Shown here: positions 4,526 to 33,880 of the stretch, one piece after another | How positions within the stretch are numbered: the stretch's first letter is position 1 | Layout: each line of letters opens with the position of its first letter | The notes under the pieces: generated by a model | Database searches by the model: none | The model's input: the letters and a program-made list of their open reading frames with translations, nothing else | Told to the model about the DNA's origin: nothing | Position numbers and translations under genes: made by a program | DNA from: Alentia gelatinosa | Taxonomy: Eukaryota; Annelida; Polychaeta; Phyllodocida; Polynoidae | Length of the DNA: 64,000 bases | Direction of reading: 5' to 3' | Assembly (NCBI GenBank): GCA_950022655.1 | Contig: OX465579.1 | Coordinates: 179,246,303-179,310,302, forward strand

Positions 4526-4558
4526 ATTGCAGGCACACCACTCGATCGTCACGCCCGG

Positions 4559-8290: not shown

Positions 8291-8320
8291 GACTTTTCTT
8301 TTTTTTATACTTTTATTTAT

Positions 8321-8368
8321 ACTGGAGTGTCTACATAGGGTGACACCCTGTTTTCAGTAGGCTCCAGT
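8321..8368 (-). other. LINE-1 3' stem-loop
   Basis: ACTGGAG (8321-8327) pairs with CTCCAGT (8362-8368), enclosing AGGGTG/ACACCCT-type pairing. LINE-2 has the same 7-bp stem in the same place (26675-26681 with 26719-26725). Many LINE RTs recognise such a 3' structure; that role here is inferred. Confidence 0.6.
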
Positions 8369-8613
8369 GGCCAATCATGCTTATGTCTAGCAATATTCTA
8401 TTTACCAAACATATTTACAGGTAAGTTCGATGTACATTCATTCAGTTATCATGCGCAGTAACATGGGGTATTTTCTTAAAGGTTTACAATCTATATACAG
8501 CATAACAAAACAAAACAGTTTCAAGATAGTACAGTTGTGTCGGATTTGTTGGGAGTGGGTAAAAGGACAGGGCATAGTAATGCTTCTTTTTAATTTAGTG
8601 AAAAGATACGACT

Positions 8614-11449
8614 TTAACCATATTGAGCTAGTTTGGATACGAGGGTCTGCTTGGTTGATTCTCTGAAAGTTTCGTAGTCATTTATTAGTCGGGTGTTTGG
8701 GCTCAGTGTGTTCCATAGGTAACTTGTTTTATAGGATATACTCGTTCTGTAGGATTCCAGCCTAAAGGTTCTGGTTTCAAGCAGTGGTCCCATCCCTTGC
8801 CTAGTATGTCTCTCAGTTTGGTCAAGATAATTATTATCTTTACTGGGTTTAAAGGCCAGGTTTGTTAGATGCGCTTCCCTTCTTTCAGCTAGTAGGTTCA
8901 TTTTCGCCTTTTGGTGTATTAGTGTAGTACTAGTTCTAGGGTCCATACGTAGGCATATTTTTAATGCTCGATTTTGGATCTTTTGAAGTCTGTCGGTCAG
9001 GTTTTGGTTGCAATTGTGGGTAAAAACATCTCCGTACTCGAAGAAAGATAAGACTTTTGTTTTATAAATTATTAAAGCTTGCTGTGTATTAAGGTATTTT
9101 CTTATTTGGGACAAGAGATAGGTTTTGTGTGATGCTCTTTTAATCTGATTTTTGATGTGTTGGTTGTAGGTTAGTTGTGAGTCTAAGTTTATACCAAGGT
9201 AGTTAAAGTGTGTGACTTCTTCAAGGTTTTGATTATTTAGTACGGTGGTTTTGTTGTTCATGTTACTTATTTGTTGTCTGGTGCCAAAGGTCATTGTTTT
9301 TGTTTTATCCTTGTTTATTGTAAGTTTGTTGTTTATACACCAATTATTGAGGTTTACCATGTCAATTTGAAGTAATTGATGTGCAGTGTTATAGTCATTA
9401 TGGGAGGAGAAGATGATCGCATCATCGGCATAGAGTCGTATATCACAGTGTTCCAGTGTGTTTCCTAGGTCGTTCACGTAGATGAGAAAAAGAAGGGGGC
9501 CCAATGTGGACCCTTGGGGAACACCATGGGTTATATTCAGGGTTGTTGATTTAGTATCATTCACTTTTGTGTAATGAGTGCGGTTTAACAGATAATTTCT
9601 GATCCAATTACAAGTTTTTTGGTGAAAACCGATCCTCCTAATTTTCTCGTTTAGTATATGGTGGTTGACTGTATCGAAAGCCTTACTGTAGTCAATGAAG
9701 GTTCCGATGGTGATTTTTTGATTGTCCATGTTGTTTAGTATTTCATCAGTGAGGGATGCTGTGGTAAGGATTGTTGATCTATTTGGTCTGAAACCTCCCT
9801 GTCTGTCGTCAAGTAGATTTTCACTGTCTAGAAAATGTATCATGTAATTGTGCACCAGTTTTTCCATCAGTTTCCCGGGTAGGGGCAATTGGGAAATAGG
9901 GCATAGTTGTGTGACACTCTTTGTGTTTTCTTTTTTGGGAATTGGGGTAACTCGTGCCGTCTTCCATTTATCTGGGAAAATTCCAGTTGTCATGGATAGA
10001 TTATAAAGGTAAGTTAGTTGTGTAGTCAGCACCATAAAGCTATCTTTAAGCATTCGGCTGGAATAAAAGTCAATTGCAGATGACTTAGAGGTGTCGATAC
10101 TTTTTATCACATCAACAATTTCGCTTTCATCAAAAACAATTATATCAGACACTTGACCAGGATCAGGTAGGGCATCAATCCATTCATTATTGTAGTTGGC
10201 TGCAAGTTTACTCCCTATCGTGGTAAAAAATTGGTTTATGTACTCCGGAATGTCCTTTCTATCTACTTTTAGTCCCGTTTCTTCATTTGTTAGTTCGATT
10301 TCCCCATCACTTTTTTGTGTAGGTATGATTTCTTTCATTCTGTCCCAGAACTTTGAGGGGGTTTGTTCATTATTGTCTGTGATGTAATTTCGTTTCGCCT
10401 CTACTATGTTTTGCTTAACTTGATTTCTAAGTCTTTTAGCCTCATTTAGTTCATCCTGGTCTCGAGATGTGTGGGCTCGCTTCATAGTCAGGTCTTTGTC
10501 AAGAATCTGCTCAATAAGTTCTTGTGTGAGCCATGGTGTATTTTTACTTTTGTATTGAATGGGCTTTAGGGGGCAGATTGGTTCGAGTACAGTTTTTATC
10601 TTATTCATGATAATGTCCCAGCATGTATCTGGGTTGTTTGATTCAAAGAACTCTGTCCAGTCTCCCTCTGTTAGTTCTTTTTGAAAGTCAGCTTTAACAT
10701 AGTTTCTATATGATCTCCCGTAACTTTGGATCGTTTCGTATTTCTCAGTGGGTTTTTTCTTAGTGATGAAAATTGCTTTGTGATCGCTTATGCTAAAAGG
10801 AAGTGTTCCTTTGTTTGTGATGTGGTCCATTGATGTAAAGACAAGATCAATCATGTTTTCATTTCTGGTACTTTCAGATATGTGTTGTTTAAGTCCTAGG
10901 GATGTTTCTAGTTGTTTAAGGATTTGAGTTTGTGGATCATTTTTCTTCTGGTAGTGGACATTAAAATCCCCTATAAGTACAACTTCGGCATTGGGATAAG
11001 TTTCTTTTACTTGATTTACTGCGTTTATGAGGTATTCGGTAGCGGTTCTAGTACACCCATCTGGCGGTTTGTATATGGTACCTAAGATTATTTTCTTCTG
11101 GTTCATTGGTTCGAGAAGTGTCCACATACATTCGATATTCTCCGAGCTGAGATCGAGTGTCTCGGGTGTATTATCTACTAGTTTGATCGAATCTCTGATA
11201 TAAGCACAAACACCTCCACCGATTTTCACTTCACCCCTTTCATTCAGCCATGTCCTATCTAGCCTTTTTAGGTAGTAACCTCCAATATGTAGGATTTCCG
11301 TTGGATAATCTTCAATTAACCATGTTTCAGATAATGTGAAAATGCTTGCGCTGGAGAGCGCGATGTGTGTCTTTATTAAGTCGGGTTAGCTTTTTAAACT
11401 ACAAGCGTTTTGGTGTACGATGTGTAGCCCTCGTCCTGGTATTTTTAGA
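8614..11449 (-). pseudogene. LINE-1 ORF2, endonuclease and reverse transcriptase
   Basis: 871 codons are open from 11229 to 8614. Upstream in the same frame are further endonuclease residues (HIVHQNACSL, then FTLSETWLIED), interrupted by one TAA at 11386-11388. Domains: APE-type endonuclease with GDFNVHY and SDHKAIF; RT with KAFDTVNH, GVPQGSTLGPLLFLIYVNDL and active site YADDAIIF; then a Cys-poor C-terminal region. The protein makes target-primed cDNA: the endonuclease nicks the target and the RT copies element RNA. Only the single nonsense codon seems to break it, so the copy is young. The N-terminal boundary (about 11449) is uncertain. Confidence 0.85.
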
Positions 11450-11774
11450 TTTTTAGTCATTTGAGATATTTAAAGCCCTTCCTATTACCCTTAGAGTCCA
11501 ACAACATCCTTTTAATCTGTTCAAGTACATATATATAAAAGTAAAACAAATATTAGAAATAATAATCAAGGTCAGTCACAGGACAAGAAAGAGCAGTAAC
11601 CAGGAAAAGATGAGGCTGCTGCTCACTCAGTGTGACTTATGTGCATGCGATCATGATCAATGTAGTTTACCTCTGTATTCTTAGTATTGGGATAGAGTAG
11701 GTGTAAGTCATTTAGGGTTGTATTTAGATTATTTATTTTATTAAGTTTACTCATTTTATAGTATGTAGCGTAGT

Positions 11775-12154
11775 GGGATGTGTTATACCACATTCCCAGT
11801 AAAAAGAAGTGTATCAGGGTATACATATATCGTTTCTATCACTCGAATAAGGATGTGTTATACCACATACCCAATTTGTGATATGTTATATGTGGAATAC
11901 ATTGGTCAAATGAGATGGTGGTCAACAAGAGAAAGGAAGAAAAAGGAGGAGAAGAGAAAAAAGATTATACATTAACTTAGTGTCCTGCATCAGTAAGGAG
12001 TTAGTGGCAATAATACAAGGTTGATTCGGTTTGTGGTAAACCACAAGACCGATATTCACGAGCGTGTTAAACCACGCAACAATGTATTTTCTTTAGTTGG
12101 GTCCGATCTCCATTTGTCATATCCGTATACACAGTTTCCTGTGTTAGACCACAG
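11775..12154 (-). promoter_or_regulatory. Array of five small hairpins in the LINE-1 spacer
   Basis: Five copies of a GTG-(T/G)TANAC-CAC core at about 11779-11790, 11854-11865, 12033-12044, 12064-12075 and 12141-12152. Flanking bases extend each stem differently but remain paired: GGGAT/ATTCCC, GGAT/ATACC, TT/AA, GC/GC and CT/AG. Stem sequence changes while pairing holds, which suggests a selected RNA (or double-symmetric DNA) structure. It lies between the SGNH ORF stop and the endonuclease-RT ORF, so it may help translate ORF2 or bind an element protein. That function is inference. Confidence 0.55.
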
Positions 12155-12240
12155 ATTTTAGTGTAGTAGGATTTGTCAAAGGCCATAGTATTTGTAAACA
12201 ATATTGTCAAGGGTGTGAGGCAGCTGACTTGTTAGGCAGG

Positions 12241-12897
12241 TTAGTTACAGGTAGTATGAATGTTATTATAAAATGTATAGGTCAGGTTTCTGGCAAACTT
12301 CAACTTAGTGTCTCTGTTAAAATGTATGCCGTCTGTAGTAGTTGATTCGTATCGATGTGCCAGGTATAGCTTTCGCGGTTTATGTACATGCTCGGTCATT
12401 CTCAGTGTAATGGCCGACCTCATAGTGTTTAGGCATTTAATGGCGGATGCTACCTCGTATACTGCGGAGTCAACTAGTTTCTGTTCATCAAGATAGGGTA
12501 GTCCGTTTATGTTGTATAATTTGAAATTAACACCAATTATTTCACAAATTATCACTAGTTTATAATACCCTTCTAGTTTAGAGTGAGCATCCGCGTATTC
12601 TCTTGTTAGGTGACTGATTATTTTGTCTTGATTATCAAAGGCTGGTTTGATATTCCTATGACCTAGCAATACTGACAAGTCATTTACTCCCGTCATTAAG
12701 TACATAAGGTCATACATTCTCTTTCCTGGAATTATTTTCAGTGCCTGATCAACCGTAGTGCTAATAGTGGTCCCTGGAAAAAAGAGTAAGTCAAAGTGTA
12801 TGTCACTCATGTTCCGCTTCACCAACTCATCGATGACCATTGAACGCATACCTCTACCACGCGAGTCAGAGATCAGCAATATACGGAATTTAGTCAT
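12241..12897 (-). CDS. LINE-1 SGNH-hydrolase-like ORF
   Basis: 218 codons from the ATG at 12897-12895. A GTG further upstream extends the frame but is unlikely to be used. Near residue 10 is ISDSRGRGM, matching block I of SGNH/GDSL hydrolases with the candidate nucleophilic Ser. Block III is TGVNDLS (about 70), and the end carries DGIHF (about 195), with the Asp and His of the triad. Esterase-like domains are known in first ORFs of some CR1-type LINEs; their substrate is unresolved. The ORF is intact and separate. Its ATG lies 24 bp after the stop of the NADAR-tail frame and it shares layout with the LINE-2 version (30851-31501). Confidence 0.8.
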   Translation of the reverse strand: MTKFRILLISDSRGRGMRSMVIDELVKRNMSDIHFDLLFFPGTTISTTVDQALKIIPGKRMYDLMYLMTGVNDLSVLLGHRNIKPAFDNQDKIISHLTREYADAHSKLEGYYKLVIICEIIGVNFKLYNINGLPYLDEQKLVDSAVYEVASAIKCLNTMRSAITLRMTEHVHKPRKLYLAHRYESTTTDGIHFNRDTKLKFARNLTYTFYNNIHTTCN

Positions 12898-12921
12898 GTT
12901 GCGGGGTATCAGAGTCACCAA

Positions 12922-13075
12922 CTACTTATCTGCAGTTTCTTGGGTTTCTTCTTGTTTTCTCTGCTTGATTTCATCCGCTATTTCTTTAAGGATAGTTCCC
13001 ATTCGGTTCTCGTTATTTGGCTTGGTTGGAAGTGGGGTCTTGCTTCGTGCTACATCGGCTAGTATGTGTCTGGAG
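12922..13075 (-). pseudogene. LINE-1 NADAR-domain tail (5'-truncated ORF1)
   Basis: About 50 codons, open to the truncation point and ending at TAG 12924-12922. They include NENRMGTILKEIADEIKQRK. This resembles the last helix of NADAR/YbiA-like domains, where a G-N-x-x-G-x-(I/L)-L-x-x-I pattern is usual, and it aligns with HENVMGNILAKIKK in LINE-2. The remaining upstream ORF1 is missing because the element is 5'-truncated. The assignment depends on LINE-2, where the whole domain can be seen. Confidence 0.6.
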
Positions 13076-14270: not shown

Positions 14271-14330
14271 TGTTTGATCCTGCTATTATACCGACAACCT
14301 TAGTTTTTTCGCACATCTGCGACGTTGAAG

Positions 14331-15437
14331 ATGCCTCCGAAGAAAACTCCCGCTGGCAAGAACCAGAAAATCGTCAAAAAGACTTCGGCAGGGGAAAACA
14401 AGAACATAAAAATGGATAAGAAAATCGAGGACTTGAGTCACGAAATGCGGACTATGAAATCTGCTATGATGGCGTTCACTCAGGCGGCAGCCTCTAGGAA
14501 CCAGGCGGCAGCCTCGCCTCCCAGGCCTATAAACGATTCTGCAATGACAGTGCCACAAGCTACCCCATCGACACCTACGGGCCCCCAGATGCGGGGATTC
14601 GATTTGCATCGGCCAAATACCACCGTGAGTACCGCCCCAACGGCTGTAAATAATGACTTCGCAGCATCCATGTTATCGCACCCCTGGATACCAAGGGACG
14701 CTCCTGGTCTGGGCGTCTCGTATCAGGATCAATCCATCGACGACCAAGTGCGCCTATTACTTCAATCTACGGCCCATGTGCTACGGCCAAATAGAGGTAA
14801 ATTTATTATTCCGTGCCACTACGTATTACTCCCCAGCCGTAAGGACCATATGAGTTTGGGCACCGTAAATTTGCAGGAGCATATTTGGGGCATCCTCCGC
14901 ATCGTGGACGATGCAGCGGTGCCCCCTACCGTCAAACCCCATGTTCTGTCCCACCTCAGGGAGGTCGTAGAGGATTGTTTAGACTATGACTTTACAGCCG
15001 TTCGCCGGTGGAGCGAGGAAATTTTCATACGGGTGGCAGAAGGCCGTTTCGCCAGGGGATGGGAGGATTCTGAGCAAATCCAACATCTACGCGCGGCGAT
15101 TTCTCGTTCTGAAAGTTCCCGGGTTTGCCGCGCGGTGGAGGCACCGGCGGCAAAGAAGAAAAACAAATCGCCGGGCGCCTCTCCAGCCCACCCCCTCTGC
15201 AAGTTGTACAATAGCGAAGGGGGTTGCGCCGTCACCCCCCCTCATTCCACAAGTGGGGGAACTGTTGTTCACTGTTGCTCCTACTGTTATGACAACTTTG
15301 GAGCGCATCACGCTCACAGTTTCGTTGATTGCCGGATAAGGGCCCGCCACGAGGCTGCCGGCGGCAGTCACGCTTCTAGTACGCCCTTCCGCGGGCAGGC
15401 AGGGGGACGACCTGCCGCCGCCATCAACTCCTCTTAG
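14331..15437 (+). CDS. Ngaro-1B ORF1, Gag-like protein
   Basis: 368 codons from ATG 14331 to TAG 15435-15437, almost identical to ORF1 of copy A. Layout: Lys-rich N-terminus, Ala/Pro linker, a central domain of unknown fold with no visible catalytic motif, and a C-terminal Cys/His cluster (CKLYNSEGGC through C-x2-C and HH to C). It is likely the RNA-binding structural protein of the element. The RT ORF lies in the -1 frame and is open back into the end of this ORF, so a fused product by frameshifting is possible; no convincing slip site was found. Confidence 0.82.
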   Translation: MPPKKTPAGKNQKIVKKTSAGENKNIKMDKKIEDLSHEMRTMKSAMMAFTQAAASRNQAAASPPRPINDSAMTVPQATPSTPTGPQMRGFDLHRPNTTVSTAPTAVNNDFAASMLSHPWIPRDAPGLGVSYQDQSIDDQVRLLLQSTAHVLRPNRGKFIIPCHYVLLPSRKDHMSLGTVNLQEHIWGILRIVDDAAVPPTVKPHVLSHLREVVEDCLDYDFTAVRRWSEEIFIRVAEGRFARGWEDSEQIQHLRAAISRSESSRVCRAVEAPAAKKKNKSPGASPAHPLCKLYNSEGGCAVTPPHSTSGGTVVHCCSYCYDNFGAHHAHSFVDCRIRARHEAAGGSHASSTPFRGQAGGRPAAAINSS

Positions 15438-15469
15438 ATCGCTCCGGCAGGGGGAGCGTCTTCCGGGGG

Positions 15470-17158
15470 GTGGGGCGGACAACCCCCCCCCCGGCAAGCC
15501 CAGTTGATGCCTCTGCCGCCGAAGTGTGGCGCACCCCCCCCTCGGACGAGTTCCGCGAGCGCTTCCCCACGGAGGGGGCGCTCTACGACGCTGTACGAGC
15601 CGGCGGAGACTACAATTATCGAGCTGCTCGCCGCGAGGTTCCGTCGGGTCTACGGGTCGACCGTTGGACCGCACTCCTTATGCACTACCACGACACCGAG
15701 CTGTGTGATTTTCTTCACTATGGCTGGCCGATTAGCTTCAACCAGTCACGTTGGCCCATCTCTACCTTCAACAACCACGCATCTGGAAGGTCCCAGGGTG
15801 CCGCCCTTGCCGCTTTCGCTGAAAAAGAGCTGCTTCTCGGGGGGCTGACGGGCCCCCTCGTCCACCTCCCGTTCGGCCAGTGGACCCAAGTATCCCCACT
15901 TCTCACTCGTCCTAAGAAGGGGGGGGAGGGTGTTCGTGTCATACTGGACTTATCATTCCCACCTGGCCAGGTGGTCAACGACGCCATCGCACCTGGTTTC
16001 TACCTGGGATCTCCCGCCGCTTACACTCTCCCCGGGGTGGGAGACTTGATCGAGGAGATTCTCGCGGCGGGCCCTACGGCTCACGTCTGGTCAGCAGACC
16101 TCTCCAGGGCTTACCGCCAACTACGGATCGACCCCGTCGATGCTCCCCTATTGTGCTTCCGTGTAGGGGGGTCTTTCTACGTGGAGCGTTGCCCCCGGTT
16201 TGGTTGCCGCACTTCATCTATCGCGTGTCAGCGCACATCGAACGGGGTCGTATACATGATGCGTTCCCGTGCACGGCATTGCCTCGCATACCTGGACGAT
16301 TTTGCGGGCGTTGCCGCAGGGAAGGGCACCGCTCAGGAGGCTTACGACCACTTCCTGTGGTTGGCTGACCATCTGGGCCTGCAACTGGCCGCAGAGAAGT
16401 GCCAGCCCCCCACCCGCCGTCTCATCTGGTTGGGTTTCGTGTTGGACATCGACGCGGCCACTGTCTCCATTCCTCCCGGCAAGCTCGCAGATGTCCTGGA
16501 GGTGTGCCGCGAGTGGGGGGGGCGCTCCCACGCATCTCGCCACCAACTCCAGTCCCTCCTGGGACGTCTCGTCCATGTCGGCCACTGCGTCCCCTACGCC
16601 CACCGCTTCATGACACGCCTCTTCTCGGCTCTACGGGCGCCGCAGGGCGCCACAGTTATCACCGTAGGCCGCGAAATGCACGCGGACATCGCGTGGTTCC
16701 GCGCTTACGCGACGTCCTCGAACGGGCGTCACTACTTCGGTCCGCCCGATGCCTCTACCGACCTCCACATCGACGCCTCCGCGGCGGGCGCCAAGGCTTC
16801 TCTGGAGGGGTCGGCCGTCAGGTGGGAGTGGCCCCCCATCGATGCGGACGTCCCCTCAGACGACGCTTCTCGCCACGCCTACGCCTTGGTCGTGGCGCTT
16901 CATCTCCTCGCTCCTCACGCCCCCCTGGGCGTCGCCATCCGGGTCCACGCCTCCCACCAAGGCGTCCTTGCCCCCCTCGCCTCGGGGGTCATCAAGAACG
17001 GCCAGATCGCCGCATGCGCGCGGCAAATTTGGCTCGACGCCGCCCTCAGAGACACCGACGTGCTTCCGGGGGGGGTGGGGGGGCTCCCCCCCTCGATGCA
17101 CGTGCCGAGTCACGTCGATGTACCTCCACACGCAGATCTCTTCAATATTGGTTTGTAA
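15470..17158 (+). CDS. Ngaro-1B reverse transcriptase / RNase H
   Basis: 562 codons. The first in-frame start-like codon is GTG 15470; no ATG occurs until well into the domain, so the protein probably starts by frameshift or at a non-ATG codon. Visible RT blocks: VRVILDLSFP (about 150), SADLSRAYRQLRIDP (first catalytic Asp), FGCRTSSIACQ, YLDDFAG at 16289-16300 (active-site Asp pair), LGLQLAAEKCQPP and RLIWLGFVLD. RNase H follows with DLHIDASAAGA and ALVVALHLL. It makes element cDNA and removes RNA. It ends TAA 17156-17158. ORF3 begins 33 bp later in the same frame. Confidence 0.88.
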   Translation: MGRTTPPPASPVDASAAEVWRTPPSDEFRERFPTEGALYDAVRAGGDYNYRAARREVPSGLRVDRWTALLMHYHDTELCDFLHYGWPISFNQSRWPISTFNNHASGRSQGAALAAFAEKELLLGGLTGPLVHLPFGQWTQVSPLLTRPKKGGEGVRVILDLSFPPGQVVNDAIAPGFYLGSPAAYTLPGVGDLIEEILAAGPTAHVWSADLSRAYRQLRIDPVDAPLLCFRVGGSFYVERCPRFGCRTSSIACQRTSNGVVYMMRSRARHCLAYLDDFAGVAAGKGTAQEAYDHFLWLADHLGLQLAAEKCQPPTRRLIWLGFVLDIDAATVSIPPGKLADVLEVCREWGGRSHASRHQLQSLLGRLVHVGHCVPYAHRFMTRLFSALRAPQGATVITVGREMHADIAWFRAYATSSNGRHYFGPPDASTDLHIDASAAGAKASLEGSAVRWEWPPIDADVPSDDASRHAYALVVALHLLAPHAPLGVAIRVHASHQGVLAPLASGVIKNGQIAACARQIWLDAALRDTDVLPGGVGGLPPSMHVPSHVDVPPHADLFNIGL

Positions 17159-17191
17159 ATTACAGGCACACCACTCGATCGCCACGCCCGG

Positions 17192-18071
17192 ATGAGGGCC
17201 TCCCATCAAGCCGCGCTTGCCCCCTCCACACACAGGAACAAGGAGGTCCAAGCGCGGAGGTACCTCCGCTTCGCCGCCGGGCACGCCGTGGTCATCCTCC
17301 GTCCTACGGTCCTGGAGGCATGCCTGTACATCCAGCACCTGGCGGATACACTCTCGTCGCCCGGGGCTGTGAGGAACGCTATCTCCGGCGCCCGCGCTTG
17401 GCTCTCGGACCATGGAGGAGACGCCGGCGCTTTCGACTCACGGCAGGCCGCGGCCGTGTTGCATGGCACGGCTCTGCAGTCAGCGCACATCCTACGCCGC
17501 GCCCCCCCCATCACCATGGATATGTTGTCTTCTATCGCCAACCAGGCGGCATCACTCACGACCGGGGTTCTCGTCAGGGCCGTGGTGCTCGTCACTTTTT
17601 TCTCCCTCCTCCGTGCTTCGAATCTCTTCGCGCCACCTCCGGGGAGGCCTTCTCACGCGCTTTTGCGCGCCGACGCGGTCATTCAGGACAGCCGCTTAGC
17701 TCTCACTGTGCGGTCAGCTAAGACCATAGGACCTGGCCGCCCTCCGGCCGTTATTATCTTGGAGCCGTCTGACGACAGGGCATTATGCCCAGTTAGGGCA
17801 TGGAGATCTTATATAGCGGCCGCCCCCGCGCGGCCGTTAGACCCCATGTTCCTGCTACGACCGGCAGAGCCGTTTTCGGCCTCTCAGTTCACCGCGGTCG
17901 TTCGTTGCCTCTTGCAACGAGCTGGTTTCCCCCACGCGGACGAGGTGACTCCTCACTCGTTCCGGAGGGGGGGGGGCTCAATTTTTTCACTCCAATGGCA
18001 TGCCGGCCGCAGACTTACAGCGTCTCGGCCCCTGGTCATCTTCGGCAGCCATGGCACCCTACCTTGTATAA
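17192..18071 (+). pseudogene. Ngaro-1B tyrosine recombinase, one frameshift from intact
   Basis: From ATG 17192 the frame holds an N-terminal SAM-like core-binding region, box I FFSLLRASNLF (catalytic Arg near residue 141) and TPHSFRRGG (box II His and Arg). After HSFRR a run of 10 Gs at about 17977-17986 puts the rest out of frame. The uninterrupted frame runs on to 18133 with unrelated residues. In the neighbouring frame the expected end follows, with MPAADLQRLGPW and MAPYLV (presumed nucleophilic Tyr), stopping at TAA 18069-18071. Copy A has 9 Gs and the right frame. The extra G may be a mutation, polymerase slippage or a sequencing error. Confidence 0.8.
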
Positions 18072-18093
18072 CTTTTTCAGACTTTCAGCTTGG

Positions 18094-18244
18094 TATCAAA
18101 TTTTCTGACATTATACCGTTTATACCAGTTTGAGTCCTTCGATCATTCTGGTCTTGTATTTTATACTGTGTGATACCGTTCTGTCATACTTCCAGTTTTT
18201 CGGTAATAAACTTTACCAAATGCCTTCGACGAGTTTTGGTCATT
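18094..18244 (+). repeat. Ngaro-1B split direct repeat B1
   Basis: 151 bp; repeated at 18448-18598; abuts A2 directly. Confidence 0.9.
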
Positions 18245-23592: not shown

Positions 23593-23630
23593 TCTCTTCA
23601 AATTAGACGGTTTTACTAACCTTTCTCAAG

Positions 23631-24726
23631 ATGGTGAAGAAACTAATTGCTTGCTCAGCGTGTGGCTTATCTCACCCACCAAGAGGTGGGCAGTTTTGTA
23701 AGTATATGTCGTTGGGAGAAAAGATCTGCAAATTGAAGGGCCTGGAGGCCACCCAGGAGCAGTACCGGGCAGCCATCGATAGAACAATGGTGGAATTCAA
23801 ATCGAAGATTTACCTTGCAGACGAGACAAGTGGGGATGAGTCTGACGAAGTAGAGAATGGCCAAGCTGCAGCTCCAAAAACGTCTCAGGACTCCCATCAG
23901 AGTCTTTTGCAAGGTTTGATGCAGGCGAGCGCGAGACAGCAGCAGCAACTGGATCAGCTGGTGAAAAAAAATCAGGGCCATGACAGTCTCTTCTCCTCCT
24001 CCAGGGCATGGTGCGGCGTCGTCGACAGTGCCGGCACAGGGACCGGCGGCTCCTCATCGACGAGCGGACGACTCGAAATCGGAGGGGATCCCTAGATGGT
24101 TCCAGACCATTCTCCAATCTACTACTCCAGGGGCGGGGACTTCTCTCGGCAGTCTCCCGGTTGACACGGCGACTGATGCATCGGTTACCCTACGTGGACC
24201 AACTCAGGCCCATTGCTGTGGATCGAAACGTAAGCGTTTTGTGAAATTTGACTTGGGGCCTTTTTTCCTAATTGACTCTGCGAATGACCGTTCCGTAGAG
24301 GACGTGGTAAGCGCAAACCTATGTCTGCTTGAGTCACTTGTGTCGAAGGGTGAGACCGACGCCATGAACTATGTTAAACATGTACGCTTTTTGGTTGACA
24401 AGTCAAAAATTCACTCTTCATCGGCGTTGGTGAAATATGACTTAGATGTGAGGGACAGAGCGGAGTGCCTGGGACTCAGCTCTATTTGTTATGGTGTACA
24501 TGAGTATGTGCAGCGACACTTGGGCCCGGACACACTGCGACCCTCAACCACACAGAAGGGAGCTGATCGTAAGCCGATTTCGTCCAAGTCTAACAGGCCC
24601 TGGGGCTATTGCTGGTTGTATCATGAGGGCAGAGTTTGTCCGAAAGGTCCCGCTTGCCCTAACAAGCATGTTTGCACTTGCGGTGGATCGCACAAAATCC
24701 CCGATTGCCCGAAATCTTCTAAATAG
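23631..24726 (+). pseudogene. Ngaro-2 Gag-like ORF, one frameshift
   Basis: Starts at ATG 23631 with MVKKLIACSACGLSHPPRGG, an N-terminal Cys pair followed by His and another Cys (possible zinc site). A Gln/Ala helical stretch and Lys run follow. At the A8 run (23966-23973) the frame changes: the first frame ends at 24095, while the other is open to 24726. The second part ends with WGYCWLYHEGRVCPKGPACP and NKHVCTCGGSHKIPDCPK, a Cys/His-rich nucleic-acid-binding tail. The A-run shift is either a lesion or a slippage site. The stop is a single TAG (24724-24726), and the RT frame is the same frame beyond it. Confidence 0.72.
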
Positions 24727-24792
24727 GTAAGTGCGGAGGCTCCTCATGTGCCCGGCGGAAGTCAGATTTTGTCAACAGCAGTGCCGCATCAA

Positions 24793-26640
24793 ATGTTATT
24801 TCCCGACGTCTGTGTTTGTGATACTTCTGACTGTTTAGACAATGACATTGTCTCTCATGATTTATTTGACTTCTTCGTGCCGGATTCGTCGTCTGATTGT
24901 GACAGTCTGAGTTTTTCTGAATGTGTTAACGCAAGTACGCCCCAGGAACAAGCTGAGTCTCCTTTCACTGCGGAGTTCAAAGATGGCGGCGAGGACTTCC
25001 GGTCGCCGTGTGTTGGTGGTTTTGCGGATGACGTTTCGAACTCTACTGATAATTCTGGACTTGTGTCGAGTTTTTTCACGCCTGTATGGTATGTAGACAA
25101 CGATTTTGCGCCTGTACATATTTTTTGTGTAGGTGAAACTTGCAAAGAACACGATTTATCGGGGGTGAACTGCCAGTTGAACCCTTGCAATGTGTATCGC
25201 GAGACTTACTGCCACCGTAATGGTGTCGATGTCAATGCTGACTACATTTTTCAAGCCGTGTCACAGGGTGTAAAAATTGTTGACGATGGTTTTTCAAACA
25301 CTTATTCGTGTGCTAACTACTCGTCGATTTTGTCAGGTGAGGCCAGATCTCAGATGGATCAGATTGTTGATATGGAACTTAATGCTGGTAAGCTGAGTAT
25401 TGCGGAGTCTCCTCCTCAGTGTGTTCATGCCTTAGGGGCTGTTATTAAACTCACAGGAAAAATAAGGCCAATAACGGATTGCAGTAGACCAGACGGTCAT
25501 TCCATTAACAGTTTTGTGGAAAATACTTGTAAGAAATTTTCTTATGTGAGCATTGACGATGTTACATCTGACTTGTGTGTCAACGATTACATGTCTGTTG
25601 TTGACATCAAATCTGCCTATAGGTCGATTAATATACGTCCTGAAGACAGGAAAGTACAGGGCCTTCTATGGGATGTGAACGCTCGGGGCACATTCATCAC
25701 TGACAACTGTTTGTGTTTTGGTGCGAAATGCACACCATACGTTTTTACTCAATTCACAGAGTTCATCATTAGATGTATGGCCCGCAGGGGTTTTTCAAAA
25801 ATTTTTGGTTATATCGATGACTTTATCGTCGTAGGTTCGTCACTTGAGGAATGTGCCCTTGCGACCAACGTGTTGGTAGCCCTCTTGGAATATATCGGGT
25901 TTGCGGTTGCCCATGAAAAGATGATTCATCCTTCAACATCTGTGGTTTATCTGGGTATTGAACTAGACTCTGTGAACATGGAGTTAAGGCTTCCACAGAA
26001 AAAACTATTGAAAATTAAAAAGTGTGTTTCAGATTTCTCCGAAAGAAAGTCATGCTCAAAAAGAGATTTGCAAAGGTTAGCTGGTTTGTTGTCACATGCC
26101 AGCACTGTCGTTAGAGGTGGTAGGACCTTCACTAGAAGGGTCATTAATCTCTGTAACTCTCTAAGTGGTTGGGACACTACTTGCAAAATACCAGAGTGGT
26201 TATTTGATGACCTTAATTGGTGGTCTAAATTTCTCCGTATTTTCAACGGAACCGCCAGGATGGTAGTTGACACTGTTGACTTAGAACCAGTCTGTACTGA
26301 CTCATCACTTACGGGTTTTGGAACTACCTGGGGAAATGATTGGGTTGCTGGGACATGGGTTTCTGATGCTACCACCAGGGGGCTCTTCCCCGAGGCTCAT
26401 TTTTCCTTAGGACCCTCTGATTACATCACGTCTATGGACATCAATGTTCTAGAGCTGTGGCCAGTCCTGTGTGCTGCAATGCATTGGGGTTGTTCCTGGA
26501 GGAACTACAAGGTGCGCTTAAAAAGCGATAACACCCAAGTTGTGTGTATGATAAACACGGGCAGGTCCCGTAGTGTACGTGCCATGTTCTGGCTACGTGA
26601 ACTATTTTGGTTAAGTTTTGTTTTTAATTTCCAGTTGACT
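24793..26640 (+). CDS. Ngaro-2 reverse transcriptase / RNase H (3' end cut by LINE-2)
   Basis: Open from the TAG of ORF1 onward; the first ATG is 24793. The first about 180 residues are acidic and Ser/Asp-rich. RT blocks: KLTGKIRPITDCSRPDG, VVDIKSAYRSINIRPEDRKV (first Asp), FGAKCTPYVFTQF, YIDDFIVVGS (active-site Asp pair) and VVYLGIELDSVNMELRLP. RNase H: LEPVCTDSSLTGFGTTWG (Asp), DINVLELWPVL (Glu) and VRLKSDNTQVVCMIN (Asp). The poly-T of LINE-2 follows directly at 26640. The downstream residues of RNase H and the link to YR are missing or displaced. Confidence 0.85.
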
Positions 26641-26674
26641 TTTTTTTTTTTTTTTTTTTAAGCTTTTTATTTAT

Positions 26675-26725
26675 ACTGGAGTTTGCGGTTTGAAACTTGC
26701 GTCTCTATCCTCCACCGTCTCCAGT
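26675..26725 (-). other. LINE-2 3' stem-loop
   Basis: ACTGGAG (26675-26681) pairs with CTCCAGT (26719-26725). LINE-1 has the identical 7-bp stem with a 34-base interval; here the interval is 37. The adjoining TTTTATTTATACTGGAG is shared, so the 3' terminus is conserved between families whose coding regions have diverged. Confidence 0.65.
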
Positions 26726-27013
26726 CGCGTCATTCAATACTTCGCCAGTGTCCAGGTTATGGCTACCATTAGTAATAACTTCGTTTTTAGCACATATTGC
26801 ATACAAGTAGCAATTTTACATCATACTGTAAACTAAGATGACTATACAGAGAAGAAGAACCACTTCGGTCAGTACAGGACCTATGGCATTGTACAAAGTT
26901 CATATATTTACTACCTAGTAATACTACACATCAGTACAGTTCAATACACCCGTATGGCAAGTGGTCCATGGTAGCCACATTTACTCTTTATATGAGAAAA
27001 AAAACAAGTCTCC

Positions 27014-29829
27014 CTAGTATTCATCCCTCAACCTTTTCATTACATTTTTCCTAACACTTAAGAATAGTGACTTATCATCTAGGTTCCTGACGTTAGCAGG
27101 TAGGTTGTTCCACAGTACGGCTGATTTGTACCTGACTGATTTTTGGTATTTGGTTATCTGGATATTGTCCTCGGTACTTAGGACCGGAGCGTCGAACATC
27201 CTAGTTCTGTTGGCATTAGCAGTTAAAAATTCCCTGTTTTTCGATCTAATGAAGGCAAGCGACATTAGGTGTGATTCCCTTCTTTCTGCTAGGTAGTTGA
27301 TATTACCAAATTTATGGAGGTCAGATACATGGTCTTCAGGTCTAGCTTTCATGCAGATTCGCAGTCCCCTGTTTTGGAGTCTCTGTAGCTTTAGTGTCAG
27401 GTTATGGTTAGTTTTATCAAACAGTATTCCACCGTATTCTGCGTACGGAAGGATTTTAGTTTTGTATACACTTATTGCTTGGTCTTTTGTTAGGTATTTT
27501 CTTATGTTCGAAAGTAGGTACATTTTGTGAGCCATGTTCTTTATATTTGTTTGCAGGTGTTTTTTGAAGGTTAGAGAGCTGTCTAGGTGTACCCCAAGGT
27601 AGGTATATTCATTTACCATTTCTAGGACTTTACCATTTATTTCCAAATTAGCTTTGGTTGTCTGTGCAATTTTTTGTCGGGTTCCGAATACCATAATTTT
27701 AGACTTGAGGGCGTTTACAGTAAGTCTGTTGTTAGCACACCAGCGACTAACAGTGTCTAGGTCCGTCTGTAGGTTCCGTTCGATTTCTTTTTGGTTATTA
27801 CCAGCGGCAAAGATTACTACGTCGTCTGCGTAAAGTTTAAATTTAGAATTTTCAACTGCATTGGCTATGTCATTTATGTATATTAGAAAATAGATAGGTC
27901 CCAATATCGAACCTTGTGGGACTCCATGCGTTAAGCGTGTTAATCCCGACCTTCTGTCATTTGCGATAGTTCGTTGTTTCCTATTACTTAGGTAGCTAGA
28001 CGACCATCCAACAAGCTTTCTGTTTATGCCTAGTTTCTGTAGTTTATAGACCAGGATGTCGTGATCGACAGTGTCGAAAGCTTTCGACATGTCCAAGAAA
28101 GCTGCCAGTGATAGCTCTTTGTTGTTCATACTTGTGAAAATACAATCAGTCAGTTCCGCTGTTGTCTGCATCGTCGAGTGGTTCGACCTAAACCCGCCCT
28201 GTTCTTTGTTAAGGAGGTCAAAGTTTTCTACGAAGGCTGTGATTTTGTCCCCAACTAGTCGCTCTAGGAGCTTACCGTGCAGGGGTAAGAGGGAAATTGG
28301 CCTCAGGTTGTTAGCTTCATCTTTGAAATTCGGTTTTTTGAGCGGGATCACATTTGCAGTTTTCCATGGTTCTGGATAAGTTTCAGTTTTAATCGATAAG
28401 TTAAATAGGAATTGGACCTGATGGTGAAGGACTTCGAAGCAGTCTTTGAATACTCTTGAGGAGATATTATCAATTGCTGCCGATTTATTGGGGTCAATGG
28501 TCTTTACAACTTTGACGATGTCCTCCAGGGTAAACTCGAAATCGTTCATTAGTTCTTTAGTGGGGCTGCAATCATCGTACCAATCATCTGTGAACTTCTC
28601 AGCTAGGGAACTACCTATTGTGGCAAAATAGTTATTGATGTGGGTCGGAGTGTCCTCAATGTCTATGTCTTCATTTCTCAAATTATCTCGTAATTTTATT
28701 GTTTCTGTCTTGCCTTTATTGGGTTCCTTATTTATTGCTTCCCAGAATTTTTTAGGGCTCTGCTCATCGTTTGCTTGTATGTACTCTCTTTTGGCGTTTT
28801 TGACTAATGCTTTGGTTTGTTTTCTCGTATTACGGGCATATTGCCAGTCTTCTTTATTACCTGATTGTCTAGCCAGCTTCCAAGCTCTATCTTTGTCACA
28901 GATTGCTTCGATGACTTGGTTTGTTAGCTCTCGTCTAGGTACATTGAGATTGTGTTGTGCATAATTTGCCACGCACTTTCAACATCCTCAATTTCATAAA
29001 AGTTCTCCCACTCATGTGCTTCAAGTAGGTCCTGTAGATCCTGTTTATTGTAGTTACGATATGAGCGACCCTTAAATTGCTTTTGTTCATACTTGATCTT
29101 AATCTTTTTTTTTGAGATATAGATGGTGCTGTGATCGCTAATGCTATCATCGAGTACCCCACATTTGCTAGTATGGTCCCATTCTGTGAAGATCAAATCT
29201 ATCGTGTTTTGATATCGAGTTGGTACTTTTATGATTTGTTTTAAATCCAAAATGTTTTCAAGAGCAACAACAGTGTTATAATCCTGACTTCCCTTCAGAT
29301 TTGTTTTTAGGTTAAAGTCACCAATCAAGGTGATCTCCCCTTTCCATTTGTCCCTAATCTGTCTCACTTGTTCCTCAATAATATCGATCAGTTTACCATG
29401 GTTACCGTCGTTCGGTCTATAGACAGTTCCTATAATCTGTGTTTTTTGTTTAGCTAAGGTGATCTTAATCCACATAATCTCAAGGTCCTCACAACTCAGG
29501 CTCCAATCAGCCAGTAGTTCTGTGTCCAGGTCCTCTTTCACATAAGCCCCCACCCCACCTCCAGTCTTGATTTCCCCTTTCTGGTTAAACCATGTTCTAT
29601 CATTTCTCAGTAGTTTGTAATTCCTAATATAATATAGGTTGCTATCATGGTCAGGGGTTAGCCATGTTTCTGATAGGGTTATCACATGTATGCCGGACTC
29701 GACAATCTGTGGGTATACTAGGTCAAGCTTGTTTTTAATACTTTGTAAGTTTTGGTGCGTTATGTGGAAACCCTTGCCTAACTTTCCTGGTTTATTCGTT
29801 AGTGTAGTATTTAAGATAGCTTATTTTGT
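27014..29829 (-). pseudogene. LINE-2 ORF2, endonuclease and reverse transcriptase
   Basis: Two overlapping frames, 29829-28924 and 28972-27014, need one frameshift near 28950. The first holds the APE-type endonuclease: HITHQNLQSIKNKL, VITLSETWL, IIGTVYRPNDG, LIGDFNLK and SISDHSTIYI. The second holds RT: KSAAIDNISSRVFK, LRPISLLPLHGKLLERLV, KAFDTVDHDIL, GVPQGSILGPIYFLIYINDI and active site YADDVVIF. A C-terminal region ending MKRLRDEY follows. No ATG precedes the endonuclease start within about 10 codons, so ORF2 may begin at a non-ATG codon or by re-initiation. The EN/RT resembles that of LINE-1. Confidence 0.85.
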
Positions 29830-30589
29830 GCCTCGGCCTTTCATACTCGAAGGGTCTATAGTCTATTGACATTGAGTTTCGTTGTTTTACAAAGTTAGTT
29901 AGGACTTTATCTCTCATTGTGCTCAATAAGAGGAGAGCTATCTCTATCCAGCAGTTGTATACCAATATGGTACCGGATGAAAACCCGCTTAACGTACAGT
30001 TTCGGTGGACGATCAGGTCATCACCCCTCAAACACACTTCTTGTTTTTCATGTCATGAGAATAAAGTGTAACTTACAGTTTTATGATGAGCGGTCAGATC
30101 GTCACAGTTTCATTATCAATTCATACAGTTAGGTTAATCGCGATATGTTGGGTGATCAGGGTTGGTTGTACAAGGTAGCGGAGCCTAGCGTCAACTTATA
30201 CCTGAATTCGAAAATTTAAAGCAATGTTCAGGACTGGCATCAAGATCACCAGGACAGTCACGTTGTTATTTGGATGTATACAGTTCTTATCATTGACTGT
30301 CTAGATTGTCATATTCATTTAAGTACAAGTCTTAGCATACATCATCATTCTTGTTGTTATAGACTTTTTGTTTAATTTGCTTTTGCATATTACAAGTGTT
30401 GACTCAAGGCAGCATGGGAAACAGACTTAGTATTTAGATATAAATACTTGGACAAGTTACAGTAGGTTTTTTGATTTACCCGTGCCATCGTCAAATGGTT
30501 GGACATCACTTCAATTCCTGAGAAAATAGAAAAGTTGTTAATATACGGTAAACAGTACAGGTAAAGCATGCATCAAGATACTAAGTAGA

Positions 30590-30813
30590 GACATGACCTT
30601 GCCACATCTCTGTAGATCATTGTTGATATTTTTAGAAACATATATACAGGTTTGGCTATAGCTCAGTAACATTCAGACATAACCTCGCCACGTCTTAAGT
30701 TTAGTTGAGCAGTATGTTATAGCCTAGTAAGGTTGGGCAAAGTCAGTTTCAGTGGCTGCGTATGGGATTAGCCCCGCGACTAAGGATGGTTTAGGACATG
30801 ACTTGACCACGTC
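30590..30813 (-). promoter_or_regulatory. Three repeated hairpins in the LINE-2 spacer
   Basis: GACATGACCTTGCCACATC (30590-30608), GACATAACCTCGCCACGTC (30676-30694) and GACATGACTTGACCACGTC (30795-30813). In RNA sense each folds as GAYGUG/YAUGUC with G-U pairs and a 7-base loop. Spacing is 86 and 119. They lie between the SGNH ORF and ORF2, as does the LINE-1 array, though the sequence is different. A role in ORF2 translation or protein binding is inferred. Confidence 0.45.
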
Positions 30814-30850
30814 CCAGTAGTTTGCACTCGAGAAACGCATGACAGCAGCT

Positions 30851-31501
30851 TCAGTTACATGTGCTGTGTATGTTGTGCTTGAATGTATAAGTCAGATTTC
30901 TCGCAAATTTATCTTTGCACTCCTGGGCAAAGTGAATTCCATCAGTGGTAGTGCTGGAATATCTGTGAGAAAGTTTCCCATGCCTTGTTTTGTGGATATG
31001 TTGTACCATGTGAGGTGTCGTTGCATTATTGAGGTTATTTATTGCGTAAATAGCTTTGTTGATCTCGCCCACAGCTTCGTTTAGTTCAACTTGTTCCTCG
31101 GGGAAGGGCTCACCATTCACATTATACAATCGAAAGGAAAGTCCCATAAATTCGCAAAGAACAACCAACTTGGCTTTTGCAGCCAAGGTCAGCCCTGCCT
31201 TAGACAGCTCAGTTATAATACGGTCAGTGATCTTATTTCGGTCCTCAAAATTCGGTACAATGTTTCTGTTAGCTAACTTCGTGGAACAGTTATTTGCACC
31301 CGTCATCAGATAGATAAGGTCCAACGGTTGGTATTTATCAATATCACGGCGGGCTCTAACTATAGTTTCGTCGATTTTAGCACCAGCGTGACAGCTGGCA
31401 AAGAACTGCACATTGTTTACCCGCTGCTTGACTAGTTCACTGTCAACTCTACTCTTGAGACGGAAGCCTCTCGAGTCGGCAATAAGTAGCACTTTAAACA
31501 T
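30851..31501 (-). CDS. LINE-2 SGNH-hydrolase-like ORF
   Basis: 216 codons from ATG 31501. Block I is LIADSRGFRLKS with the candidate catalytic Ser near residue 9. Block III is MTGANNCSTK (about 75), with Asn in place of the usual Asp after the conserved Asn. Block V is TTDGIHF near residue 190, with Asp and His of the triad. Residues between share pattern and length with the LINE-1 protein (for example LVVLCEFMG against LVIICEIIG, and a common ending HSTCN / HTTCN). Intact; 40 bp after the NADAR stop. Substrate unknown; acyl-ester hydrolysis is expected for the fold. Confidence 0.8.
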   Translation of the reverse strand: MFKVLLIADSRGFRLKSRVDSELVKQRVNNVQFFASCHAGAKIDETIVRARRDIDKYQPLDLIYLMTGANNCSTKLANRNIVPNFEDRNKITDRIITELSKAGLTLAAKAKLVVLCEFMGLSFRLYNVNGEPFPEEQVELNEAVGEINKAIYAINNLNNATTPHMVQHIHKTRHGKLSHRYSSTTTDGIHFAQECKDKFARNLTYTFKHNIHSTCN

Positions 31502-31541
31502 GGTATACAGCCTGTTCTACTCACTGTTTATATTGGGGTCG

Positions 31542-32934
31542 CTAGAGGGTTTTCTTGATCTTGGCAAGGATGTTTCCCATTACATTTTCGTGTCCCTGGC
31601 GTGGCATGTTGTTTTGGTCGACTTGGTTCAGTTCGAACAGGGTGACACCGCACCCGTACACCTTGTCTTTTGTTGCCTCGTAGAAGTTGTCAGTACTGGC
31701 TTGCCTCACTTTGTCCGCGATCCACGGGTTTTGGTCTAGTTTGAGTGTTACTATTTCCTCGAGAACTTGGCGCTCTTTATCTTTCCACTTCTGATCTTTA
31801 CGGATTTTTCGAGTGATTGATTTCAGCGTGTATGGGTTTGTTGTTTCCAGGATCAATTTTGCCGCCGCGAGGTCGTTGTGATGGTTTGCAAGTCGGACCG
31901 CGTATACATGTTCGCCGAAGGGCCGCTTATGCCAAAGCGTGCGTCAATGACTTTACATCTGTAAAGATCGCTTAGCGGGCTAAGGTGGCTCTGGAAGAAG
32001 ACTCCCATGTCATTTCTAACTGTGGAGGCCTTTTCAGGGGTAATACTGAAGGGCAGATCATCATAGTTAGATTCGATGTACTGTACTCCATCAATGATTA
32101 CACCGTTTTGTTTCAGTTTGGCTTCCTTGGCCCCGCACCGTCGTGCGGCTTCGACAATCAACTGTGCTTCTTTCCTTTTGAGAAGTTCATCGTCATTTAG
32201 ATCGTTAGCAAAAGTGACTTTCTCATATTTGGTACCCCCAATTTAGCCTTCAGACCAAAAATCTCTGAACGCTGTTGTTTTGTGATCAGCTTGATCTTTA
32301 TAGGCCTGATCCATTTGTTTTTCTGATTGTTTATGTTTGTGTTTTGCTGTTTGCCGATCCTGAAGGCCCCTTGGGTCATCGCAAAAGGGAAACTGGTGCC
32401 CAGTGTGTTGAATAGATCATTTACTACCACATACATTTTTTCATTTTCACTTTCTTCAATGCCCCTGACAATGATATTTAGACTCCTTTCATACTTTTGG
32501 TTCTGCTCGTTCGATTTTTTTAGCAATTCAATGTCCGAGTCATGTTCCGCTACTTTCTTGTCGGTCGCTGTCATGGCTTCCCTCGCCTCCTTCGTTTCGG
32601 CCATATGATCTGTCAGTTTTTTTGTTAAGTCAGTTACCACTTGTTTTTGATCGTTGGTCTCAGCACTAACCTTATCCAACTTTTCAGATAGTTTGGTATT
32701 TTCCTCTTTCAAATCGGATCTGATCTGTCCAATCTCAGTTTTTATCCAGTTGATTGAGCTTGCAAGATCTGTGATACTTTTAAGAAGTTGCTGGTGGTCT
32801 TCCGCACGGCCTGCCATTGTTGATGTTTGCAATGCATCAGCGTCGCGTCCCTGGCAACCGCTCCCTTTATCGCTCACTGTCGAAGAAGTTGAACTTGATC
32901 TTGTCACTCTGCGATGATCGCTAAGTGGATCCAT
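31542..32934 (-). pseudogene. LINE-2 ORF1: coiled coil, RRM, C-terminal domain and NADAR-like domain
   Basis: Starts at ATG 32934. Residues about 45-150 are a heptad-rich coiled coil. Next is an RRM-like segment (NIIVRGIEESENE, GAFRIGKQ, RPIKIKL), then a C-terminal domain (VTFANDLNDDELLKRKEA), as in L1 ORF1p-type RNA chaperones. After one frameshift near 32222 the frame runs into VFFQSHLSPLSDLY. After a second near 31940 it gives PFGEHVYAVRLANHHNDLAA and KWKDKERQVLEEIV. It ends with KVYGCGVTLFE and HENVMGNILAKIKK at TAG 31542. These blocks follow the order of NADAR/YbiA-like domains (S-x-x-S-x-x-Y, E-x-x-Y, W, G-x-G, G-N/x-x-G-x-(I/L)-L). NADAR proteins act on ADP-ribose-related compounds or N-glycosidic bonds; the function in a LINE is unknown. 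Confidence 0.7.
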
Positions 32935-32939
32935 GTAAG

Positions 32940-33104
32940 AATGTTATCAGTTCATACTCCATGTGTTCACGAACATTTGCACAGGTTTTCTTGCCAGAAG
33001 GCCTAGATTAATCCATGCAGAGCTAGATAGACGACCGCGCTCGACTCACGAAGGTCTTAACCGGTTGCCGCCATCACACGTACGTGTGCACACGTTGCTT
33101 CTGT
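32940..33104 (-). other. Presumed LINE-2 5' UTR and junction with Ngaro-2
   Basis: No coding frame in either element. Ngaro-2 YR residues (KNVVPDFSYSS) resume at about 33105, so the LINE 5' end lies within this interval. No target-site duplication was identified. Confidence 0.45.
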
Positions 33105-33880
33105 TAAGAATGTAGTCCCCGATTTTTCTTATTCGTCAATACAAAACTACTTGTCGGCCTTATGGACCTTGCACAAAATTAACGGGTTTGATCATGTGAC
33201 ACCTTCGGACTTTCGGATAATTTCAATGTTGAAGGGCATCAGACGTCATTTAGGCGATACTCGTTCGCAGGCCCCTACTATGACAATTGCTCATTTATCT
33301 GTGATTTTTTCTTCTTTAGATTTTTTGTTAAGTGAGGATAATATTTTTTGGTTGTGCCTCATTATAGGGTTTAGAGGGCTGTTGCGTAAATCGAATTTGT
33401 TCGACAAAGACTCCTGTATTTCAATCAAGGATGTATTTTTTTGACTGGGGCGTCTTGGTGTGTATCCGTCGTTCTAAGACGATTCAGGTTAAAGAAAGAG
33501 TATTACAGATTCTGTTCGCGAGAACATCTAACCTCAAATATTGTGTTGCTCACCATATGGGGGTTCGATTTTTATCTGGACCTACGAGTCCTGAATCACC
33601 ACTTTTGTGTTATTTCTCAGGTTCATCTTTCAAAAATTGTACTTATTATTGGTTTTCCAAAAAATTGTTTACTGTATGTCAGCGATTATCGCTTCCTAAT
33701 TACACCTCCCACTCATTGCACCGTGGTGGTGCAACTGCCCTATTGGGAGCAGGGCTACCTATTTTTGATATCAAACTACGAGGTGATTGGTCTAGTAATT
33801 GTGTTTATCAGTACTTATCAAAGACACTTCAAGAAAGAGTTGTTACTGATTCTGAAGTTTCTCAGACCTTATTTTTTTAG
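33105..33880 (+). pseudogene. Ngaro-2 tyrosine recombinase, one frameshift, altered HxxR box
   Basis: The frame resumes after LINE-2 with KNVVPDFSYSSIQNYLSALW and a core-binding region. Box I is IGFRGLLRKSNLF (catalytic Arg). At the T7 run near 33434-33440 the frame changes and continues through PLLCYF, YTSHSLHRGGATALLGAGL and LRGDWSSNCVYQYLS, which has the presumed nucleophilic Tyr, to TAG 33878-33880. In the second box, HSLHR (33710-33724) replaces the usual HSxRR, so the first Arg is His (CAC, one transition from CGC). Either this copy is catalytically damaged or the next Arg takes over. Confidence 0.78.

Follow-up and report, generated by a model that had tools for sequence, protein, structure and literature searches.

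NADAR domains cleave ADP-ribose off guanine, in DNA as well as in RNA (PMC11543638, PMC11833690, PMC11125620), and among the hydrolase families tested they alone reversed guanosine ADP-ribosylation on RNA (PMC11833690). Their role in animals was called unclear (PMC11125620). The closest described counterparts of the element reported here are several Tx1 LINE families of Crassostrea gigas, in which ORF1 appears to have a NADAR of the YbiA family and for which RNA processing was suggested (PMC12477816). Gypsy elements of the brown alga Ectocarpus carry a NADAR at the Pol N-terminus, with almost only bacterial blastp matches outside Ectocarpus (PMC12477816). These are NADAR-bearing retroelements too, but LTR elements with the domain in another position. 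DarT1-associated NADAR antitoxins and the oomycete NADAR 8bau are, as far as the accessible text describes them, not fused to a LINE RNA-binding protein (PMC11543638), while the activity of the LINE NADARs is a predicted one. Some animal RNA viruses have a NADAR inside their polyproteins (PMC9503650). Human LINE-1 ORF1p (2ykp) is without NADAR, whereas here the domain follows the CTD. CR1/L2 LINEs such as ZfL2-1, in which the ORF1 itself is an esterase (type IV; PMC3905857, PMC4120745), likewise encode an SGNH-type hydrolase, but in the present elements the hydrolase forms a separate middle ORF beside a type II (RRM) ORF1. In comparison with what is described for the C. gigas Tx1 families, the genome analyzed here also has the NADAR in several lineages of CR1/L2-like LINEs whose SGNH ORF is free, as well as intact copies, selection on the domain, recent mobility, signs of ORF1 exchange and an altered active site in one family.

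The window, a stretch of 64,000 nucleotides of the Alentia gelatinosa genome, contains a decayed LINE with an ORF1 composed of coiled coil, RRM, CTD and NADAR, a free SGNH-like ORF and an endonuclease-reverse transcriptase ORF (Table 1). The original prediction had proposed for this place a frameshift-split ORF1 of the L1 ORF1p type followed by NADAR sequence blocks. Both parts were recovered, with one break between RRM and CTD, which lie in different frames, and one inside the NADAR, which scored 54.5 bits with PF08719 at a cutoff of 35.1. The free SGNH ORF beside ORF1 and the second such LINE of the window had not been named in the original prediction. The ORF1 profile A1 gave 54.3 bits over 32200-32943, and the coiled coil showed weak matches to coiled-coil families. 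The 3' end of the copy, CTCCAGTATAAATAAAA plus poly(A) at about 26640-26659, is common to this copy and a second, 5'-truncated LINE of the same kind. In the second copy ORF2 (8614-11385, 923 aa) and the SGNH-like ORF (12241-12921) are open; the latter shares 46% identity with the SGNH ORF of the first copy and gave no Pfam match itself. The last approximately 30 ORF1 residues of the second copy (12922-13014) resemble the C-terminal helix of NADAR with 5.9 bits, a score equalled by 19 of 20,000 shuffles (top shuffle 9.5 bits).

Table 1. Coordinates of the two LINE copies in the window and of their parts.
Feature	Position	Strand	Basis and remarks
LINE copy D1, three ORFs, CR1/L2-like, decayed	26640..32943	-	ORFs; from ORF1 frame to 3' poly(A)
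D1 ORF1 coiled coil	32494..32808	-	limits by eye
D1 ORF1 RRM, L1-ORF1p-like	32236..32487	-	profile A1; limits by eye
D1 ORF1 CTD	32048..32242	-	profile A1, 25.4 bits over 31856-32242
D1 NADAR, C terminus of ORF1	31542..32008	-	one internal frameshift; stop codon present
D1 SGNH/GDSL-like hydrolase, separate ORF between ORF1 and ORF2	30851..31501	-	block I ADSR, block V DGIH; Lipase_GDSL_2 E 4e-5, 24.6 bits, below cutoff of 32.9
D1 ORF2	27014..29820	-	endonuclease and reverse transcriptase in different frames
D1 ORF2 endonuclease	28924-29820	-	Exo_endo_phos E 0.0039, 17.4 bits, below cutoff of 24.5
D1 ORF2 reverse transcriptase	27014-28978	-	RVT_1 126 bits
LINE copy D2, same kind, 5'-truncated	8293..13014	-	

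Two features on the plus strand adjoin the first copy. An RT element at 23607-26661 (RVT_1, 54 bits) has an ORF that continues into the 3'-terminal poly(T) of the LINE, and a tyrosine-recombinase-like ORF, seen by eye without a Pfam match, lies just past the LINE at 33061-33880. The LINE may thus be nested inside a DIRS-like element.

The likeness of ORF1 to L1 ORF1p was confirmed by profile comparison. The ORF1 profile matched human LINE-1 ORF1p (2ykp) with E 4.9e-5 over profile positions 205-376 and, outside the coiled coil, the mouse structure 2ldy (E 0.0025) and 2w7a (E 0.0079); unrelated coiled-coil chains appear in the same list from E 0.0008 onward. By these comparisons the ORF1 is classified as L1-type (type II) with coiled coil, RRM and CTD, and trimerization and an RNA chaperone role are predicted for it. 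NADAR and RRM/CTD were found in one ORF in 60 of 65 loci of the genome; for the 41 loci that had been left out of RRM/CTD profile building the count was 39. The idea of a host sequence joined by accident is ruled out by the 60 loci. Concerning the identity of the NADAR, nine LINE ORF1s and one further protein (L027) scored 105-115 bits with PF08719, and comparison of predicted structures indicated the NADAR fold, so that the family proposed in the original prediction held in profile search and structure comparison alike. Chance or a profile artefact is excluded by the PF08719 scores, the ORF1 profile and the fold comparison.

In order to find relatives of the window copy the genome was searched with window positions 30851-32943, which yielded 48 matches, counting the window itself and several that are pieces of single places. 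Two relatives (L070, L071) are 98% identical to the window copy, the others, including L072 and L073, approximately 68%; together they are called family D here. The ORF1 of L073 is a single open frame of 465 aa running through coiled coil, RRM, CTD and NADAR (PF08719, 50.5 bits) instead of stopping before the NADAR, and in L072 the frame is open from RRM to NADAR. RRM and CTD share one frame in L070, L072 and L073. L070 has an unbroken NADAR and its own break between CTD and NADAR, while L071 shows an RRM/CTD break like that of the window with CTD and NADAR in-frame. From these four frames it follows that the NADAR is a genuine part of the family D ORF1 and that the window copy is a decayed one. 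A dead oddity of a single copy is ruled out by the intact L073 and the many other lineages.

The survey covered 1.234 Gb, nearly all of it in 15 contigs of 38.6-180.8 Mb. A first look yielded 3,136 NADAR candidates, of which the best 150 were scored with Pfam; all 150 were above the cutoff and 146 were without a stop within the match. A total of 20 loci of approximately 10 kb, mostly picked for long open frames, were examined: 16 contained CR1/L2-like and 3 L1-like LINEs (L011, L015, L017), and L027 was of another kind. Thus, several lineages of NADAR-ORF1 LINEs, both CR1/L2-like and L1-like, exist in this genome. The ORF2 of L011 matched human L1 ORF2p with E 2e-110 over residues 46-1203, and L015 and L017 were assigned as L1-like by their similarity to L011. 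The ORF2 of L012, a CR1/L2-like element, matched R2 and a group II intron RT alone in the PDB set at E <= 0.001 and had no match to L1 ORF2p there. The labels CR1/L2-like and Jockey-group are presumptive, as they build on characteristic motifs and on the absent L1 match and not on a reference RT tree. Tx1 elements we take to be members of the L1 superfamily. In having a NADAR in the ORF1 of such a LINE, the C. gigas elements, as far as they are described in the accessible text of PMC12477816, resemble our L1-like group E (L011, L015, L017), with the L1-like ORF2 of L011.

An SGNH ORF with block I ([GS]DSR) lies between ORF1 and ORF2 in all 16 CR1/L2-like loci. The strict DG[IV]HP pattern was present in 12 of the 16; the SGNH ORF of L023 is truncated. 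When Pfam was run on three of these SGNH-like ORFs, a GDSL match was obtained for one (L012), barely over the cutoff, so the label SGNH rests mainly on the motifs. Among the L1-like elements no SGNH ORF was found after ORF1 in L011 and L015. L017 has a frameshifted SGNH (TDSRGR ... PDGIHP) at 2900-3540 (+) of its locus, directly after the NADAR-ORF1, in the CR1/L2-like arrangement.

Two NADAR genes of different build were observed. The top NADAR match genome-wide (L001:1402-2127, +; 180 bits) is a 242-aa frame with a basic tail and without RRM/CTD match; it looks like a stand-alone NADAR gene and is perhaps the host's own. L027:3-2843 (+) is a 947-aa ORF with internal repeats, a C-terminal NADAR (106 bits), no RRM/CTD match and an LRAT-like N-terminus (28.7 bits, cutoff 24.3), a different NADAR fusion, distinct from the LINE ORF1s treated here.

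In the E. coli C7 NADAR, E88, K95 and D171 were reported as catalytic and K95R as hydrolysis-competent in vitro (PMC11543638). The LINE NADARs outside family D have the same Glu-Lys spacing of +7, and their Lys aligns with K50 of the P. nicotianae NADAR (PMC11543638). In 65 loci outside family D the first Glu was found in 65, the Lys in 64 (Arg in L042), the second Glu in 65, the Trp in 64 and the Asn of GxN in 65. We are aware of the fact that these loci were drawn from the best 150 matches, mostly for their long open frames, which biases the sample towards intact active sites, and that the set includes L001 and L027, neither of which is a LINE ORF1. By alignment, the second Glu corresponds to the catalytic Glu of the superfamily. 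The best NCBIfam model for the NADARs of L012 and L011 was TIGR02464, a riboflavin-intermediate N-glycosidase, with 109.9 and 122.7 bits (cutoff 73.7). The second match for L012, L011 and two database proteins (P0013, P0008) was NF053876, 'NADAR family anti-phage protein', with 40-68 bits at a cutoff of 240.

The active site of family D is different. In five sequences, three of them 98% alike, the first Glu is kept in all five and the second in four, while the Lys at +7 is replaced by Leu and the Trp by Tyr in all five. Hydrolysis is therefore doubtful in this family, though not in the other lineages. Tyr for Trp also occurs in another NADAR protein (P0005), which keeps the Lys, so that the Trp change alone is little informative. 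The family D NADAR keeps the fold with an altered active site and may bind instead of cut, or use another substrate; we consider a binding role or another substrate as likely as hydrolysis. Of the proposed ADP-ribose chemistry, the family and the fold stand, while for the window's own family, which is without the catalytic Lys and the conserved Trp, hydrolysis is in question. Family D nevertheless looks constrained: its NADAR gave an omega of 0.062 [0.048-0.148] for L072/L073, a pair in which dS was saturated and therefore capped at 3.5. Against the decayed L071 the values were 0.14-0.19, and for RRM/CTD 0.03-0.04, also capped.

Selection was assessed more broadly in 24 chosen pairs. As dN/dS across ORF1 is largely saturated, omega was taken from pairs with usable dS and pN used elsewhere; most pairs are saturated at synonymous sites and the omega values are therefore rough. 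For L016/L024 we obtained 0.035 [0.013-0.074] for the NADAR, 0.045 for RRM/CTD, 0.294 for the linker and 0.161 for the N-terminal part, and 0.057 and 0.071 for SGNH and ORF2. L009 has no unbroken ORF2, and its pair is absent from the SGNH/ORF2 comparison. The five unsaturated NADAR comparisons ranged from 0.041 to 0.171, and in each of the 19 pairs whose linker could be aligned, the NADAR had a lower pN than the linker. The L1-like group was less constrained in its NADAR than L016/L024 (0.152 and 0.171 in two unsaturated pairs), and in L017/L037 the value of 0.152 exceeded that of RRM/CTD (0.098). These values indicate purifying selection on the NADAR in LINE ORF1. Evidence of recent mobility came from L016 and L018. 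Over 7,261 aligned bases the two share 99.74% identity; they have a common 5' start and a 3' poly(A), and lie on different contigs (that of L016 is short) with differing flanks. Near-identity with differing flanks marks them as recent insertions that arose separately; clear target-site duplications were not established for this pair. Other copy pairs compared showed 98.0-99.7% identity.

Among the literature matches listed, PMC12477816 was the only report found of NADAR in LINEs, and none was found for CR1/L2-like LINEs; most subscription papers and Repbase were outside this search. The word NADAR is absent from the main texts of a bivalve LINE survey (PMC10294476) and a gastropod non-LTR paper (PMC11203168). 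As far as these listings show, several points are new: CR1/L2-like LINEs with a NADAR, their arrangement of three ORFs including a free SGNH, the data on conservation and selection, the signs of exchange between superfamilies, and a lineage whose active site is altered.

Regarding the origin of the module, mean NADAR identity of the L1-like group to groups A, B and C was 0.344, 0.328 and 0.354, compared with 0.31-0.35 among A, B and C; lineage D was lower, at 0.22-0.30. RRM/CTD identities left no gap either, with 0.21-0.26 for the L1-like group against A, B and C and 0.21-0.24 within A, B and C. For the RT, in contrast, the L1-like group shared 0.209, 0.202 and 0.197 with A, B and C, versus 0.33-0.35 among these. 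The branch before the L1-like group measured 3.3 substitutions per site in the RT tree, 0.5 in the RRM tree and 0.2 in the NADAR tree. As NADAR and RRM/CTD are without the gap of the RT, passage of ORF1 plus NADAR between LINE superfamilies is the simplest reading, and the module was probably exchanged along with the rest of ORF1. The broken SGNH after ORF1 of the L1-like L017 points to the same exchange. ORF1 exchange between CR1 and L2 lineages has been proposed before (PMC4120745); if our reading is true, one ORF1 module in two LINE superfamilies is a clear case of exchange between superfamilies.

That L1-like and CR1/L2-like LINEs gained the NADAR separately, without ORF1 exchange, appears doubtful to us, given that the L1-like NADARs and RRM/CTDs are as near the CR1/L2-like ones as those are among themselves, that the NADAR has the same place after the CTD and that L017 shares the SGNH remnant. 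In favor of separate gain, the nodes that unite the LINE groups had supports of 54-87 in the larger trees. When YbiA was included it fell within group A with low support (36-68), which we take as a long-branch error, yet it is a reason for caution about any single origin. Proteins from other sources were also considered. A protein-database search with the NADAR region of one ORF1 gave 120 candidates, none at E <= 0.001, while a search with the NADAR alignment gave 25 proteins, of which 21 were inspected. In P0008, P0009, P0010 and P0013 an ORF1 CTD ahead of the NADAR was recognized by eye, in P0013 also in the predicted structure; P0006, a relative of P0009, begins at the CTD end. The NADARs of P0006 and P0008-P0010 cluster with the stand-alone L001, P0002, P0003, P0005 and 8bau (UFBoot 98), apart from the LINEs of this genome, which makes repeated gain possible; there may have been multiple gain or replacement. 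Scanning viral contigs with one peptide pattern of the NADAR alignment gave 9 matching stretches, none of them confirmed as a relative.

As to function, we tentatively favor an explanation that joins the NADAR-ORF1 LINE, removal of ADP-ribose from RNA and cDNA, exchange of the module and the altered site of family D, and as a whole we place it just short of an even chance. ORF1p would coat the RNA of its own element, and the NADAR attached to it would strip ADP-ribose from guanine of this RNA and of the first cDNA strand. The template would so remain readable for the reverse transcriptase despite a host or invading ADP-ribosyltransferase, the NADAR acting like the antitoxin of a toxin-antitoxin pair carried in cis. 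NADAR-ORF1 proteins that are mobile, selected and intact point to a concrete, testable substrate of the domain, the RNA and cDNA of the LINE itself. Guanine-N2 ADP-ribosylating activity was reported from six edible clams (PMC11209040), which makes it directly testable whether invertebrates are engaged in an arms race that centers on the ADP-ribosylation of bases. In a bolder form, which we hold to be improbable on balance, the host would direct guanine ADP-ribosylation against transposons, ORF1p would serve as antitoxin, the module would have spread between superfamilies and the D lineage would have become a reader. If true, this would mean host ADP-ribosylation immunity against transposons with a counter-module carried by LINEs; no published report of such immunity was found in the literature searched.

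Counting against removal of ADP-ribose from nucleic acid, NADARs are also N-glycosidases in riboflavin biosynthesis, and TIGR02464 is the best model for L012 and L011. The domain could be an N-glycosidase that acts on small molecules derived from NAD or nucleotides or takes part in the processing of RNA ends, placed in ORF1 only since ORF1p is abundant. The TIGR02464 scores over the cutoff and a nematode NADAR protein required for RNA trans-splicing (PMC9303266) speak for this, but fusion to a nucleic-acid-binding protein suggests a nucleic-acid substrate, and the SGNH enzyme of these LINEs has an ORF to itself; we regard it as unlikely. Slightly less probable still is a reader that performs no hydrolysis but recognizes ADP-ribose, or nucleic acid or chromatin modified with it, and thereby guides the LINE particle to sites such as nicked DNA marked by PARP. 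Family D, constrained and largely keeping fold and both Glu despite its replaced Lys and Trp, would fit a reader, as would the neighboring nucleic-acid-binding domains, while the near-invariant catalytic residues of the other lineages go beyond the expected need of a pure binder. A functionless passenger, be it a decayed piece of host sequence or a spurious profile match, has next to no probability: the window copy itself is a pseudogene, but the one-ORF counts, the strong constraint and the near-identical recent copies refute it. Removal of ADP-ribose from LINE RNA and cDNA remains our preferred explanation.

The remainder of the window holds further mobile elements. Rfam at gathering thresholds gave no match over the whole window. 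Pieces of a Gypsy-like LTR element, integrase core and RT-RNase H, lie at 56954-59053 (-). Another RT element is present in two copies closely alike by eye (1719-4984 and 14304-18133, both +), with RVT_1 at 48 bits in the 14304-18133 copy and tandem 16-base repeats close to the copies.
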